64,000 bases of DNA from Methanosphaerula palustris E1-9c (GTDB lineage Archaea; Halobacteriota; Methanomicrobia; Methanomicrobiales; Methanospirillaceae), in contig NC_011832.1 of assembly GCF_000021965.1 (NCBI RefSeq), forward strand, positions 1,674,001-1,738,000, written 5' to 3'. Shown piece by piece: positions 5,567 through 10,542 of the stretch (position 1 is the stretch's first letter; every line of letters starts with the position of its first letter). A program made the position numbers and the translations under genes. Below the pieces are notes generated by a model. That model did no database searches, was not told the origin of the DNA, and saw only the letters and a program-made list of their open reading frames with translations.

Positions 5567-5824
5567 TCAGTCGTTCCACTTAAAATAAGGGGTTCCCTCG
5601 ATCACCCTGCATTCGATCCGTTCCTCCTCGAAGAGGTGCGGGATCAACAGGAGAAGATCTGCGATGAAGATATCGAGGTGACGAATCCGATCGATCTGGT
5701 CACCGATGATCGCCGCTTCGATCTCATGCAACGAGTACCCGGTATCCGGATGGGCTCTGAGAAATCGTTCAATTTCATTGATCTGCACCGATCCTTCGCT
5801 GAACTCCCATGCTGACACCGGCAT
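5567..5824 (-). CDS. small winged-helix-like hypothetical protein, 85 aa
   Basis: The product is a short soluble protein with an INEIERFLRAHPDTGYSLHEI segment that looks like the first helices of a winged-helix fold, and a C-terminal wing-like strand ending YFKWND. AGGGG lies directly upstream of the ATG. No ligand or metal motif is evident. It sits between the cupin gene and the antiporter on the same strand and could be expressed with either. The fold assignment is tentative. Confidence 0.55.
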   Translation of the reverse strand: MPVSAWEFSEGSVQINEIERFLRAHPDTGYSLHEIEAAIIGDQIDRIRHLDIFIADLLLLIPHLFEEERIECRVIEGTPYFKWND

Positions 5825-5885
5825 TCCCCTTCACCTTCGATACCCTTTATCCAGGGAATCTGGTATTTAATAGTACCGGCTGGTC

Positions 5886-6251
5886 TCACTCGCGGATCAT
5901 CGTCAGCGACATCTTGAACCGCGTGAGGGCCGAGAGGGCATGGGGGACATTGGCCGGAAAGATGATCGTCTCCCCTTCCTTCATCTGGTAGGTCTGGCCG
6001 GCCACCCAGACCTCGCACTCGCCATCCAGGATCGTCACGACCGCATCGTAGGGGGCGGTATGCTCGGAGAGACCCTCGTTCTCATCGAACGAGAATATTG
6101 TGATGCTGCCGGCCTTGCGGTTTGCAATCATCCGACTTGAGACGGTCCCTTCCGAATATTCGACAAGGTCCTTGAGAGAAAGCACCTTTGCATAGAGTTC
6201 TGCTCTCCTCTGGTCGTGTGTATCCGGATGTTCCGGTTTATATTCTGCCAT
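5886..6251 (-). CDS. cupin-domain protein
   Basis: This roughly 121-residue protein carries one cupin barrel. The conserved strand motifs are GLSEHTAPYDAVVTILDGE (motif 1) and a later IIFPANVPHAL (motif 2), with the His and Glu expected for a metal site. The start at 6251 is preferred because GGAGGT lies ten bases upstream; the frame could begin further upstream without such a site. Single-domain cupins of this type in anaerobes bind small ligands or act as isomerase-like accessory proteins; the substrate is unknown. It lies just downstream of hcp on the same strand and may be co-transcribed with it. Confidence 0.82.
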   Translation of the reverse strand: MAEYKPEHPDTHDQRRAELYAKVLSLKDLVEYSEGTVSSRMIANRKAGSITIFSFDENEGLSEHTAPYDAVVTILDGECEVWVAGQTYQMKEGETIIFPANVPHALSALTRFKMSLTMIRE

Positions 6252-6322
6252 TGACTGGTAAACCTCCATTCTTTCTAGTGGCACCCCTATAAAAAAGAAG
6301 GGATCTGTCTCCAGGTCGACGC

Positions 6323-7939
6323 TTATGCACTCGGGACCATCCGGGCGAGGTCCTCTTCCACGGTACTGTTCTTGCTGATTCCGAAGTTTTCGACCAGCAC
6401 GTTCAGGACACCGGGGGAGATGAAGCCGGGCAGGCGGGGTCCGAGCGTGATGTTTTTGACTCCAAGGTTCAGCAGTGCCAGCAGAACGAGAACGGCCTTC
6501 TGCTCGTACCAGGCGATGTTGTACGAGATCGGCAGTTCGTTCAGGTCGACATTGAAGGCCCCTGCCAGCGCCTGGGCGATCACGACCAGCGAGTAGGAGT
6601 CATTGCACTGCCCGGCATCGAGCACCCGCGGGATCCCGCCGATGGTGCCGAGGCCGAGGCTGTTGTACCGGTACTTTGCGCACCCGGCCGTCAGGATCAC
6701 CGTGTCCTTCGGAAGTGCTTCTGCGAATTTCGTGTAGTAGTCCCGGTCACTGTGCCGGCCGTCGCAGCCCGCCATCACCAGGAACCGCTTGATCGCTCCG
6801 CTCTTCACCGCATCGACGACCGTGCCGGCGATCGCAAGGACCGCATCGTGGGCGGCACCGGTGATCAGGTCCATTCCGTTCCCGATGCTCGTCGGGGGCG
6901 GGCTGGTCTTTGCCCGGGCGATCACCGCAGAGAAGTCCTTGCTGCCGTCCGCAGCCGCAGGAATGTAGGTGACGCCGGCGAACCCGACCTGCCCAGTGGT
7001 GTAGATCCGGTTGATATACGACTCCTTTGGCGGGACCAGGCAGTTGGTGGTGACCACGATCGGACCGTTGAACTGTTCGAACTCCTCCTTCTGGTGGTGC
7101 CATGAACTGCCATAGTTGCCGACGAGATTGGTGTACTTCTTGAAGGCCGGATAGGCATGCGCCGGGAGCATCTCACCATGGGTGTAGACATCCACACCGC
7201 TCTCCTTCGTCTGCTCGAGGAGCATTTCAAGGTCTTTGAGATCATGGCCGGTGATCAGAATACCGGGGCGTGTCCCGACCGTCGTCTTCACCGTGGTGAT
7301 CTCAGGCTTTCCATAGGCCCCGGTGTTGGCCGCATCGAGGAGGGCCAGTACCTTCACACCGACGCCCCCGCATTCGAGGACCAGGGCGATCAACTGGTCG
7401 GCCGGCAGGTCTGCGACTGTCGCGGCGAGCCCCGTCTGGAGGAAGGTGGTGATCGTCTCGTCGGTAGAACCGAGCACGGCTGCATGGGTGTAATACGCAC
7501 TGATCCCTTTCATACCATAGGTCAGGAGTAGGCGGAGCGAGGTGATGTCGTCCCCTTTCTGCGCCAGTGATGCAATCTCATCAGCCTTCGCGGCGATATC
7601 ACCGTCGTTCTTCGGAGTCCAGGTGCAGACCTCCGGCTCTTCCCCTTCCAGATGTGGCAGAGCATCGCGGAGTGCGATGGCCTGCTGGATCAGATCGTTG
7701 AACCGGGCCGGGTCGAAGTTCACATTGGTCAGGGTCGCAAAGAGTGCATCAGCAATGAATATTCCTGCTTTTGCATCTCCGACTCCCTTTTCCATAGCCT
7801 TTAGATTCCGCACTGCGATCCCCTTGCACAGATATATCAATACATCCTGAAGCCCTGCGGTGGCTCCTTCTTTACCGCAGACCCCTTTCACTGTACATCC
7901 ACTACCTTTTGCCGTCTCTTCACACTGGTTACAGAACAT
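6323..7939 (-). CDS. hcp: hybrid cluster protein / hydroxylamine reductase
   Basis: The protein starts [19 protein letters not shown], giving the N-terminal cluster cysteines C3, C6, C15 and C21 (CX2CX8CX5C spacing). Further hybrid-cluster ligand regions follow, including [25 protein letters not shown] and AGQCNDS. At about 538 residues it has the normal Hcp length. The enzyme reduces NO or hydroxylamine and protects against nitrosative stress. The ATG at 7939 is chosen because GGGAG sits eight bases upstream; a further ATG at 7954 would add five residues. It is divergent from an HxlR regulator with an inverted repeat spanning the gap, so it is probably controlled by that protein. Confidence 0.95.
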
Positions 7940-7951
7940 AAATTTCGCTCC

Positions 7952-8028
7952 CATGGTATATTTTTGCTACAAGATATCTAATATATACTATAATATAAAT
8001 AGTCGGAGGTTTCAAAAAATATACCATG
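7952..8028. promoter_or_regulatory. divergent hcp/hxlR promoter with inverted repeat
   Basis: Two arms form a nearly perfect inverted repeat: CATGGTATATTTTTG at 7952-7966 and its complement with one extra A at 8013-8028. The arms lie at the start of each divergent gene and flank about 46 AT-rich bases holding TATA-like sequence for both directions. The symmetry suggests two equivalent operator sites for the HxlR protein encoded at 8026. Confidence 0.6.
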
Positions 8029-8385
8029 CAGGAAGCGTGCACCGTCAATAAAACAGTCAGATATCTAACCAGGAAATGGACGCTTCTGATCATTCTGGAG
8101 ATCTACAAAGGGGAAGGATACTCCCGGAGATTTTCAGATCTTCGGGATGCTCTGGCAGGCATCACCTCCAAGACACTTTCGGAACGGTTGAAAGAACTTG
8201 AAACAGAGGGGCTCGTCACTCACCAGATCGATGCCACCTCGTTCCCGGTGAAGAGCGAATACATCCTGACCGAGAGCGGCCTTGAGATCATCGAGATCGT
8301 CAGGGACATCAAGACGTGGGCGTTGAAGTGGAAGATCGACAACATCGCCTGTGGGAACCAGGACTGTAAGGTCTGCGTGCTCTAA
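8026..8385 (+). CDS. HxlR-family winged-helix regulator with cysteine cluster
   Basis: The 119-residue protein has the HxlR signature: C5 near the N-terminus, TRKWTLLIILEIYKGEG, then LAGITSKTLSERLKELE for the recognition helix. Unusually it ends ACGNQDCKVCVL, giving C109, C114 and C117 in a CX4CX2C tail. With C5 these could hold an Fe-S cluster or a metal, or form a thiol switch. Its position divergent from hcp across a symmetric operator suggests it senses NO or redox change and controls hcp. GGAGGT lies 15 bases upstream, longer than normal. Sensor chemistry is inference. Confidence 0.88.
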   Translation: MQEACTVNKTVRYLTRKWTLLIILEIYKGEGYSRRFSDLRDALAGITSKTLSERLKELETEGLVTHQIDATSFPVKSEYILTESGLEIIEIVRDIKTWALKWKIDNIACGNQDCKVCVL

Positions 8386-8482
8386 ACGAGCAGAGCATCA
8401 CCAGCAACCCATCGAAGGGAAGACCTGAAAAATTTTGGGGCCTGTTCAAAATATTATTAAGGTCCTGGAGAGTAGTGTACCT

Positions 8483-8965
8483 ATGCATCACTTCACCGGG
8501 TTTGAGCTCACCCCCCGGAAAGTCGAATATATGAAATATATCTCAACGCGAGGAGAACGGGTGAACACCAGCAAAATGGCGGTCTATTTCAATGTCGACC
8601 CGTCCACGATCACCAAGATGATCGGTGAACTCTCAGAGAGTGGGTACCTCACCCATGTGCCCTACCATGGAGTGACGTTCACCCAAAAAGGAAAGGAATA
8701 TACCGAGTTTCTCCTCAGGCGTCACAGGATCCTCGGGCTGGTACTCACCCATTACGGGCTTTCGCCCGAAGAAGCCTGTTTTGAATCGGCCCGGTTTGAG
8801 AGTTATGTCTCCCGCGAGATGATCGATCGAATCTGCAGGTCCCTTGGACATCCGATGATGGGTGTCTGCGGAGCCATCCCCCATGACCGTGAATGCTGTC
8901 AGTTGGAGGCAGATCATCTGGCTGATGAACAAAAAAATGTCAATACAATACAGTTTGACCGGTGA
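8483..8965 (+). CDS. DtxR/MntR-family metal-dependent regulator
   Basis: This 160-residue protein has an N-terminal helix-turn-helix (TSKMAVYFNVDPSTITKMIG) followed by a wing and the RRHRILGLVL helix typical of DtxR/MntR dimerisation domains. Metal-site candidates include C and H residues in the EEACFESARFESYVS region and the late HDRECC. No FeoA-like SH3 domain is present. The ATG at 8483 is preferred over an upstream TTG. Its stop overlaps the GTG start of cbiQ by four bases, so it likely regulates the metal transporter with which it is coupled. Ni or Co is more likely than Fe from the context. Confidence 0.82.
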   Translation: MHHFTGFELTPRKVEYMKYISTRGERVNTSKMAVYFNVDPSTITKMIGELSESGYLTHVPYHGVTFTQKGKEYTEFLLRRHRILGLVLTHYGLSPEEACFESARFESYVSREMIDRICRSLGHPMMGVCGAIPHDRECCQLEADHLADEQKNVNTIQFDR

Positions 8966-9768
8966 TCGGATTGCTGAACGATCACCTCCCTGACCTGAAC
9001 CTCATCACCTGGTATGCAGAGAGTAACCACTCATTCCTCTCCCGGGTGAGTCCCTGGACCAAAGGGATCACTCTGGTACTGCTGGTGCTCTTCATTACGG
9101 TGAACCGGTCTCCCCTGCTGCTGGCCGGAGTCTATGCTGCGATCCTGATCCTCTACAAAACAGCCGGATTTTCATTAAAGCAACTCTTCAAATGGTATCT
9201 GCTCCCAGTCGTCTTCGTTATCTCGATATTCGGGATTATGATGTGGAGTGAGCCGGGGCCGATCCTTCTATCTATTCCCCTCGGTCTGATGACATTGACG
9301 CTGAGTGTAAACGGTCTCCTTCTGCTGATCACCTTAACGCTTAAGACGCTGATCATGGTCACCTACTCATTGCTCTTCCTGATGACGACGCGCTATCTCC
9401 ACCTGACGACGATGGTCGACAGGGTCTTTCCAAACCCGCTCAATCAGATCTTCCTGATGTCGTACCGGTTCATCTTTCTTATGCTCTCCCTTGTGGAAGC
9501 ACTCCTCAAATCGGTAAAATCGCGTGGTGGTGGTCTGATCCAGAGTGCACGACAACAGGGAACGATATTTGCCGAGGTCTTCGGACTGGTCTTCATCCGC
9601 TCGTTCGACAAGGCAGAACGGGTTACCGGAGCCATGCAGGCACGGGGATACTCGGGACAGTACAGGGCACTGACACCAGTCCCTTCCATCCGGGTACCGG
9701 AATGGATCTTCCTTATCTGTGCCGGCATCGCGGTGTTGTATGTGATACTGACCGGGAAGATCTGGTGA
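8962..9768 (+). CDS. cbiQ: energy-coupling-factor transporter T component, CbiQ-like
   Basis: The 268-aa membrane protein has about six helices and the conserved cytoplasmic coupling region seen as SRGGGL near residue 190 and AMQARGYSG near residue 230; the latter A-R-G motif contacts the ATPases in ECF transporters. The start is GTG, overlapping the stop of the DtxR-like gene. A CbiM-like substrate-binding subunit and a CbiN-like protein follow, so the system should import Ni2+ or Co2+. No CbiO-type ATPase is encoded in the cluster, so an ATPase must come from elsewhere. Confidence 0.88.
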   Translation: MIGLLNDHLPDLNLITWYAESNHSFLSRVSPWTKGITLVLLVLFITVNRSPLLLAGVYAAILILYKTAGFSLKQLFKWYLLPVVFVISIFGIMMWSEPGPILLSIPLGLMTLTLSVNGLLLLITLTLKTLIMVTYSLLFLMTTRYLHLTTMVDRVFPNPLNQIFLMSYRFIFLMLSLVEALLKSVKSRGGGLIQSARQQGTIFAEVFGLVFIRSFDKAERVTGAMQARGYSGQYRALTPVPSIRVPEWIFLICAGIAVLYVILTGKIW

Positions 9769-9894
9769 AGAATCCAACCTTTCTTTGGAAGTAAATTTTT
9801 ACCACACCCCAAAATTTTAGCAATGTTTTTCTGTTACCACAAAGAATGCTGATCACCAGAGAGGAGAACTTCGTCTGGTATCAGTTGATCAGTT

Positions 9895-10542
9895 ATGGCG
9901 CATATACATCTTCCAGATGGATCGTTCACCCTTCTTTGGGTAGTAGTATGGTGGGTTGTGACCGGGGTGTTGATCGCAGGGTCACTGTACCTGTTGCGGA
10001 GGAAGGGACCGCTTGATAGCAGAAAGATCACCATCGCCGCCTTCTGTACAGCAGCCTGTTTTGCAGTCTTTCAGGTGAGTATCCCGCTCTTCGGTGGAGT
10101 CCATATCAATCTGACCTCCCTGATCGGGATTCTCACCGGTCCCCTGATCGGGAGTCTGATCGTCTTCATCGTCAATATCCTCTCCGCCGGTATCGGGCAT
10201 GGCGGATGGGGAATGGTCGGAGCCAACACCTTCGTCAATATCATCGAGGTTGTTACGGCCTACGCGGTGTACCGCGGAACCGGGCGGTTCCTCACCGGAA
10301 CCTTCTCCCGTGCCGGCATCGCAACCCTCATCGCCCTCGTTTTTGGCAGTGTGGGAATGATCGGGGTTATTCTGATCTCCGGTGTGCAGGGGACGGAACA
10401 GACGATGAGTCAGACACTGTACGGACTCTCTCTTCTGACGGTGGTGAACCTCGGGGTTGCAGTCATCGAAGCCTTCGTCACCGGATATATCGTGACCTAT
10501 ATCAAGAGGGTGAGACCGGCGATGATGCCAGAGGAGAACTGA
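9895..10542 (+). CDS. cbiM: CbiM/NikM-type substrate-binding membrane protein
   Basis: The N-terminus MAHIHLPDG places His at positions 3 and 5, the known metal ligands of CbiM/NikM that bind Co2+ or Ni2+ with the N-terminal amine. A family-typical HGGWGMVGAN segment lies near residue 102, and about six helices follow. The start is fixed by this motif although no strong ribosome site is near; GGAG lies about 33 bases upstream. It is separated from cbiQ by 126 bases holding a directly repeated ATCAGTT half-site, and abuts the CbiN-like gene. Ni versus Co is not decidable from sequence. Confidence 0.88.
   Translation: MAHIHLPDGSFTLLWVVVWWVVTGVLIAGSLYLLRRKGPLDSRKITIAAFCTAACFAVFQVSIPLFGGVHINLTSLIGILTGPLIGSLIVFIVNILSAGIGHGGWGMVGANTFVNIIEVVTAYAVYRGTGRFLTGTFSRAGIATLIALVFGSVGMIGVILISGVQGTEQTMSQTLYGLSLLTVVNLGVAVIEAFVTGYIVTYIKRVRPAMMPEEN

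Follow-up and report, generated by a model that had tools for sequence, protein, structure and literature searches.

The closest described relatives of the protein reported here are YodB, QsrR and HypR, redox repressors of the HxlR/DUF24 type from Firmicutes, which a profile match places in PF01638 like the archaeal protein. The operator of QsrR reads GTATA-N5-TATAC and is left out of the argument below. All three repressors sense through an N-terminal cysteine. In the sections cited, Cys6 of YodB is described as pairing with Cys101 or Cys108, near the C-terminus, of its partner subunit (PMC6798810, PMC8063818), and the YodB operator is given as TACT-N7-AGTA (PMC8063818). The protein that gave the family its name, B. 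subtilis HxlR, is a formaldehyde activator working through a Cys-Lys crosslink, with targets that differ from those of the archaeal HxlR; its N-terminal Cys11 participates in sensing, according to the part of the source used (PMC7835342).

Bacterial hcp, the gene for the hybrid cluster protein, has been predicted or shown to be under HcpR, NsrR, NorR or DNR in the response to nitrogen oxides, and the hcp-regulation section of the same paper describes no archaeal hcp regulator (PMC1274295). Like the archaeal HxlR candidate these are hcp regulators, but they belong to other protein families. Among thiol-based redox regulators from Archaea, MsvR, SurR (ArsR family) and OxsR (TrmB family) differ from HxlR in family and in targets. 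MsvR derepresses its own gene and the adjacent operon, and HxlR is absent from the main text of the paper concerned, as far as it is covered here (PMC9426492). Likewise, the word HxlR does not occur in the covered part of a survey from 2026 on the gene surroundings of CO dehydrogenase and hcp (PMC13056359). A 2023 structural paper states, in the passages cited, that hcp genes of classes I and III often stand alone, without related neighbours and with no evident NO source, and that Methanothermococcus, an organism outside the loci treated here, expresses hcp without a known NO source (PMC10210160). Among the openly licensed papers listed in our searches, none describes an archaeal HxlR linked with hcp, with Fe-S or with control by nitrogen oxides. 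A conserved regulator with its putative operator and co-regulated genes gives a handle on the role of hcp in methanogens, since the signal that releases the proposed repressor should reveal the purpose of archaeal hcp.

The window analysed here, a stretch of 64,000 nucleotides, spans positions 1674001-1738000 of Methanosphaerula palustris E1-9c, whose genome is a single contig of 2,922,917 bases. Our analysis favours, at a probability of roughly 0.65, an HxlR protein encoded at 8026-8385 that acts as an autoregulatory repressor of hcp on three dyads and senses through Cys5 and Cys109/114/117, most likely by way of a metal or Fe-S site. The features of the locus are as follows (window coordinates):

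5886-6284, minus strand: cupin gene, downstream of hcp on the same strand (PF07883, 48.7 bits)
6323-7939, minus strand: hcp, hybrid cluster protein (NF003658), with its likely start; the open reading frame reaches 7954
7948-7952, minus strand: Shine-Dalgarno-like sequence of hcp, found upstream of codon 6 in 86/92 loci, columns partly conserved
7952-7965: left arm of a 14-nt inverted repeat, consisting of an O1 half-site and a poorly conserved CATG
7956-7970, no strand: operator O1, GTATA-TTTTT-GCTAC, from column conservation (family consensus GTATC-N5-GATAC)
7974-7988, no strand: operator O2, ATATC-TAATA-TATAC, from column conservation (7985 and 7987 are A in 89/89 rows)
7994-8002, no strand: TATA box TATAAATA, conserved A/T columns
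8009-8024, no strand: operator O3, GTTTC-N6-TATAC, just 5' of the hxlR start, from column conservation
8015-8028: right arm of the 14-nt inverted repeat, consisting of an O3 half-site and the hxlR start codon
8026-8385, plus strand: hxlR, four-Cys HxlR/DUF24 regulator of 119 aa (PF01638)
8038-8040, plus strand: codon of Cys5, conserved in 109/109 orthologs and profile-aligned to the sensing N-terminal Cys of QsrR
8350-8376, plus strand: codons of Cys109-X4-Cys114-X2-Cys117, the C-terminal knuckle

The original prediction of a divergent hcp/HxlR pair is upheld by the profile scores of both products: 791 bits for NF003658 hydroxylamine reductase (cut-off 367) and 557 bits for Prismane in the case of hcp, and 74.8 bits for PF01638 (HxlR/DUF24) against a curated cut-off of 20.8 in the case of the regulator. 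The hxlR product is not a member of the Rrf2 (NsrR) or Crp/Fnr (HcpR) families; a Pfam search at E 0.001 returned HxlR only, and its NCBIfam matches, RrpA and RrpB, both score below cut-off. Cupin genes are recurrent downstream of hcp in relatives, and the cupin gene of the window probably shares one transcript with hcp. The region adjoining hxlR on its other side (8483-10539) encodes a DtxR/MntR-like regulator together with CbiQ and CbiM of a cobalt/nickel ECF transporter.

Orthologs were sought in 199 genomes of one order, sampled from a larger group, and ortholog sets were collected by similarity to the proteins of the order. Among the matches listed, the distribution was bimodal, with orthologs at 57-75 % identity, nearly all full-length, separated by a gap from a next group at about 33-45 %. 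This yielded 110 ortholog loci in 105 of the 199 genomes, including the window and a broken copy in genome G079; an HxlR fragment with stops (G130) was omitted, and the frameshifted L125 was left out of the 109-protein cysteine counts. A further set of loci with named hosts holds the best 80 of 456 confirmed ones, with relatives including Methanoregula, Methanoculleus and Methanocalculus. One of these 80, L196, lies in a metagenome-assembled genome labelled bacterial and is 66 % identical; the label is likely due to contamination.

All four cysteines that had been named for the regulator (C5, C109, C114 and C117) are present as described. Cys109 and Cys114 occur in 109/109 orthologs of the order and Cys117 in 108/109; the sole exception, L074, sits close to the end of a contig and continues into other sequence. 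Over a wider set, the N-terminal Cys and the CX4CX2C tail were found together in 179 of 181 distinct orthologs (exceptions L074 and L125) from the order, Methanothrix, Methanosarcina relatives, Methanomassiliicoccales, Thermoplasmata and DPANN archaea. As the sequences compared here have it, the gene pairing and the Cys set are more widespread than one window could show. The further claim that HxlR proteins usually have one or few cysteines holds only in part. Besides the copy in the window, 12 HxlR segments of the same genome were scored, and these carry between one and four cysteines. These segments come from 17 matches, with loci for 15, of which two pairs look like pieces of single genes; none of the 12 shows the CX4CX2C tail, L013 being a 63-aa fragment that does not extend to this part.

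A predicted monomer model based on 90 diverse sequences reached a pLDDT of 91.6, with mean values of 83 and 78 in its last two blocks; an earlier model from 40 sequences had a low-confidence tail (64 and 45 in the same blocks). The predicted fold is a winged helix like that of YodB, QsrR and HxlR, shared with the Firmicutes repressors, and HypR, QsrR and YodB are among the closest solved folds (QsrR-DNA: Z 15.2, rmsd 2.2, 103 aligned; YodB: Z 14.4, rmsd 2.3, 98 aligned). By sequence profile, Cys5 aligns with the N-terminal sensing Cys of QsrR, and YodB has extra cysteines near its C-terminus, as the archaeal HxlR does. The archaeal four-Cys HxlR differs from the Firmicutes repressors in its CX4CX2C tail, in hcp and related genes as its probable targets, in the GTATC/GATAC half-site, and in putative operators paired around a shared TATA box.

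The same kinship is what speaks for a metal-free thiol switch, on the pattern of YodB, QsrR and HypR, in which Cys5 would be linked by a disulfide to a C-terminal cysteine in the other subunit, or would undergo S-nitrosation or alkylation. The closest solved folds and the alignment of Cys5 to the QsrR cysteine agree with it, and two near-C-terminal cysteines are a known layout (YodB Cys101 and Cys108). Yet a CX4CX2C arrangement at fixed spacing in 179/181 orthologs across archaeal phyla exceeds what a disulfide needs, and the carriers are, we assume, mostly strict anaerobes, so that we regard the thiol switch as a genuine but rather unlikely alternative. Less probable again is a structural zinc in the C-terminal knuckle, with sensing through Cys5 alone or through another ligand. 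A short, ordered Cys knuckle would suit zinc, and the tail is confident in the 90-sequence model, but it lacks a conserved His. Moreover, Cys5 is as conserved as Cys109, Cys114 and Cys117, which suggests one four-Cys site. The likeliest sensor is a metal or Fe-S site, given four conserved cysteines in hosts that are presumably mostly strict anaerobes. In the structural alignment with the predicted model, residue 103 corresponds to YodB 101 at the end of the aligned range, which would place Cys109 one to two helical turns further on, so that Cys5 could meet the knuckle of the partner.

The linkage of hxlR to hcp is evident from gene content and gene order. Both genes occur in 102 of the 199 genomes, hxlR alone in three, hcp alone in two and neither in 92 (Fisher p 2e-50, with shared ancestry ignored). 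Divergent orientation was found at 93 of 110 loci. The 17 non-divergent loci include nine of genus g27 (mostly Methanocorpusculum), L096, with hcp 1.5 kb from hxlR, and the broken copy L125. In L017 and L124 hcp is located on another contig, in L058 (534 nt upstream covered) no hcp was found in the genome, and in G197, a genome 84 % complete, hcp was not found though hxlR is present. Five genomes carry the pair twice, and divergent hcp has been kept in all ten copies; L024 and L026, from two of these five genomes, share the very same protein and upstream sequence, so transfer or a binning error is possible.

The other three of the 17 loci, L023, L032 and L038, show unusual arrangements of hcp. 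Only 33 residues of hcp are left in L023 (genome G041); hxlR is intact and the promoter still matches the promoter profile described below. In L032 (a Methanocalculus chunghsingensis contig, as is L235) and L038 a duplication covers the promoter and first codons of hcp; what faces hxlR is a short piece from the 5' end of hcp, and the full gene lies about 600-890 nt off. In genomes G012 and G036 the operator profile is found on both copies of a duplicated hcp promoter.

The control region was aligned from 93 upstream regions (90 distinct rows). Three dyads stand out from the alignment by their column conservation: O1 and O2, with the consensus GTATC-N5-GATAC, separate the TATA box from the hcp start codon, and O3, with the consensus GTTTC-N6-NATAC, separates it from the hxlR start. 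Within O3, position 8013 is C in 90/90 rows, and 8009, 8010 and 8012 are conserved in 89/90. From 28 selected rows the consensus TnGTATCTTTTTGATACAAnGTATCnATTnnATACTAAnnTATAAATAGnnGnGAGTTTCnAAAAnTATACCATG was obtained. The GTATC-N5-GATAC dyad covers the same 15-bp span as the YodB operator. The TATA box is retained at hcp promoters apart from hxlR, and a single TATA box probably serves both directions. Transcription is predicted to begin near 7970 for hcp, with a leader, and near 8024-8026 for hxlR. Upstream of hxlR a Shine-Dalgarno-like sequence was found in 0/92 loci (window counted), and the TATA box lies about 28 nt upstream, which makes a leaderless hxlR mRNA probable. A known RNA element in the gap was considered and discarded, because an Rfam scan of 5800-9000 at gathering scores gave no match.

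The inverted repeat that had first drawn attention to the gap does exist, its arms being complementary at 14/14 letters around a 49-nt spacer, and none of 400 dinucleotide shuffles of the gap reached 14 or more paired letters (maximum 10). Its interpretation as a long symmetric hcp operator has to be rejected, since the intact pair of 14-mers is present in 1/93 ortholog gaps, namely the window alone. The sequence CATGGTAT occurs on the hcp side in 5/93 ortholog gaps, and in the 92 gaps other than that of the window the right arm agrees with the hcp side at no more than 12/14 letters. As the sequence comparison reveals, the repeat consists of the outer half-sites of O1 and O3 joined with a chance CATG. 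It was also said to sit at both start codons. It does touch the hxlR start, but the in-frame ATG at 7954 on the hcp side is probably not a start: an in-frame ATG up to seven codons upstream of codon 6 was found in only 17/92 loci. Codon 6, by contrast, is ATG in 90/92 loci and is preceded by a Shine-Dalgarno-like sequence in 86/92 (window counted), and the comparison thus places the likely hcp start at this codon, at 7939.

A dyad motif derived from the order was searched in upstream regions, of which those below 120 nt and duplicates were left out of the counts. Sites with at most one mismatch were found in 65/108 regions of the order itself (the derivation set; shuffled mean 0.63). Outside the derivation set such sites occur in 11/13 Methanothrix-type, 13/18 Methanosarcina-type and 21/36 other archaeal regions (shuffled means 0.07-0.20); in the other 15 of these 36 no dyad within one mismatch was found. 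An O3-type site (GTWTC-N6/7-ATAC) lies near the hxlR start in 84/103 loci of the order (shuffled mean 0.09), in 13/13 Methanothrix-type, 15/18 Methanosarcina-type and 18/36 other archaeal regions. Twenty of the Methanosarcina-type and Methanothrix-type regions had been selected by hand from matches. The pattern GTATC-N5-GATAC by itself, with one mismatch allowed, gave 106 matches in the own genome, three of them exact, versus 28 for a reversed control. This pattern is too loose to name a regulon, and a 75-nt promoter profile built from 28 promoters of the order was therefore used instead; searches of more than 40 genomes were run with stricter filters, at which weak matches are lost. The profile has one strong match in the own genome, the hcp/hxlR gap (E 4.6e-18; next match 0.037). 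When 120 order genomes were searched, the profile matched in 65, and all 65 carry the regulator; among regulator genomes up to G120 the match is missing only in G079, the genome with the broken copy.

The operator also follows hcp where the two genes are separated. Seven g27 genomes of the sample have the two genes about 4 kb apart (four genomes) or on different contigs (three genomes), and in the same seven the profile is found directly upstream of one hcp in 7/7 and of hxlR in 4/7. A second hcp copy in nine g27 genomes gave no profile match at E 0.01 under the stricter filters, so not every hcp is under the regulator. A distinct archaeal HxlR subfamily tied to hcp is supported by the near-invariant Cys set, the co-occurrence with hcp, the divergent synteny and an operator that stays with the separated hcp.

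Lying on either side of the TATA box, where they separate it from the two start codons, the dyads suit repression of both genes, presumably through binding by HxlR. Activation of hcp, by a protein resembling B. subtilis HxlR, is improbable: the family does include this one activator, as the cited part of the source describes (PMC7835342), but the placement of O1-O3 between TATA box and start codons suits blocking, not recruitment. That the conserved gap is merely a strong bidirectional promoter while HxlR binds elsewhere is hardly credible, for although a TATA box sits at the centre of the conserved block, the dyads are symmetric and lie outside it, recur at hxlR without an hcp neighbour and at hcp without an hxlR neighbour, and their profile was found solely in regulator-bearing genomes (120 sampled).

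Under the autoregulatory repressor model, HxlR dimers would occupy the three 15-16 bp dyads flanking the shared TATA box and would repress hcp, with the cupin gene behind it, as well as hxlR itself. The occupied dyads would overlap both presumed transcription starts and thereby block the basal machinery. A signal would be received via Cys5, as in YodB and QsrR, together with the Cys109/114/117 knuckle, the four cysteines most likely forming a site for metal or Fe-S that may span the dimer (cf. YodB Cys6-Cys101'). Nitrogen oxide, hydroxylamine or oxidation would then destroy or alter this site, the protein would leave the DNA and hcp would be expressed. Points against the model are the hxlR genomes in which no complete hcp was found (G041, G197), the second g27 hcp copies lacking a profile match, the orthologs opposite genes other than hcp, the 15 archaeal regions in which no dyad was found, and the expression of hcp in Methanothermococcus. 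The four-Cys HxlR thus probably switches hcp on under nitrogen-oxide or redox stress, as far as conserved sequence can indicate, and the HxlR family would, if this is true, gain archaeal thiol or metal sensing.

A bolder version is that of an ancient archaeal hcp regulon, present in methanogens, Thermoplasmata and DPANN, with the first Fe-S or metal HxlR, in which NO or hydroxylamine would destroy a dimer-spanning four-Cys cluster and derepress hcp together with siroheme nitrite/sulfite-reductase-like, ferredoxin, DUF166/CGGC and CO-dehydrogenase genes. We put this forward tentatively, at less than even odds. For 75 further entries, nearly all from outside the order and with some genomes present twice, seven probes were run over 1500 nt on the divergent strand. 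The nearest probe was hcp in 30, NIR_SIR in 12, a ferredoxin-type protein in eight, DUF166 in five and CGGC in three; ten had no probe match and seven too little sequence. L224, scored as having no divergent probe, has an hcp gene downstream in the same orientation. For the NIR_SIR protein from L233 the best match is NirB, the large subunit of nitrite reductase (E 1.8e-52, below the model cut-off). As signal, the putative targets point to nitrite, hydroxylamine or NO, or to a wider redox stress, and since some orthologs face a ferredoxin or siroheme-reductase-like gene and not hcp, the signal may exceed NO.

In the class of G252 (Methanosarcina type) the profile matched in 49/60 genomes at E 0.05. 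Among 20 extra Methanosarcina-type promoter sites, hand-picked from profile matches, 12 lie directly upstream of hcp, four beside DUF166 genes (one identified by Pfam, the others by likeness) and two near CO dehydrogenase catalytic subunits that score over the family cut-off; in L311 and L313 the nearby genes are without name. The two CO dehydrogenase sites differ in distance, the profile lying 43 nt from the catalytic subunit gene in L302 and about 600 nt from it, with a small ORF between, in L308. In L172, L311 and L313 (Methanothrix types) a gene of about 276-348 aa lies near the operator, with a short N-terminal motif that appears common by eye; a Pfam scan of the operator-near genes of L172 and L311 gave no match. 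In L218, L220, L225, L227, L228 and L230 (mostly DPANN) the divergent gene encodes a protein of 260-335 aa. The two of these that were scanned, from L220 and L225, have an N-terminal 4Fe-4S ferredoxin domain, and such a protein opposite hxlR is possibly an electron donor. In L233, L262 and L298-L300, genes for DUF166, CGGC-domain and siroheme-reductase-like proteins cluster beside a four-Cys hxlR or its operator.
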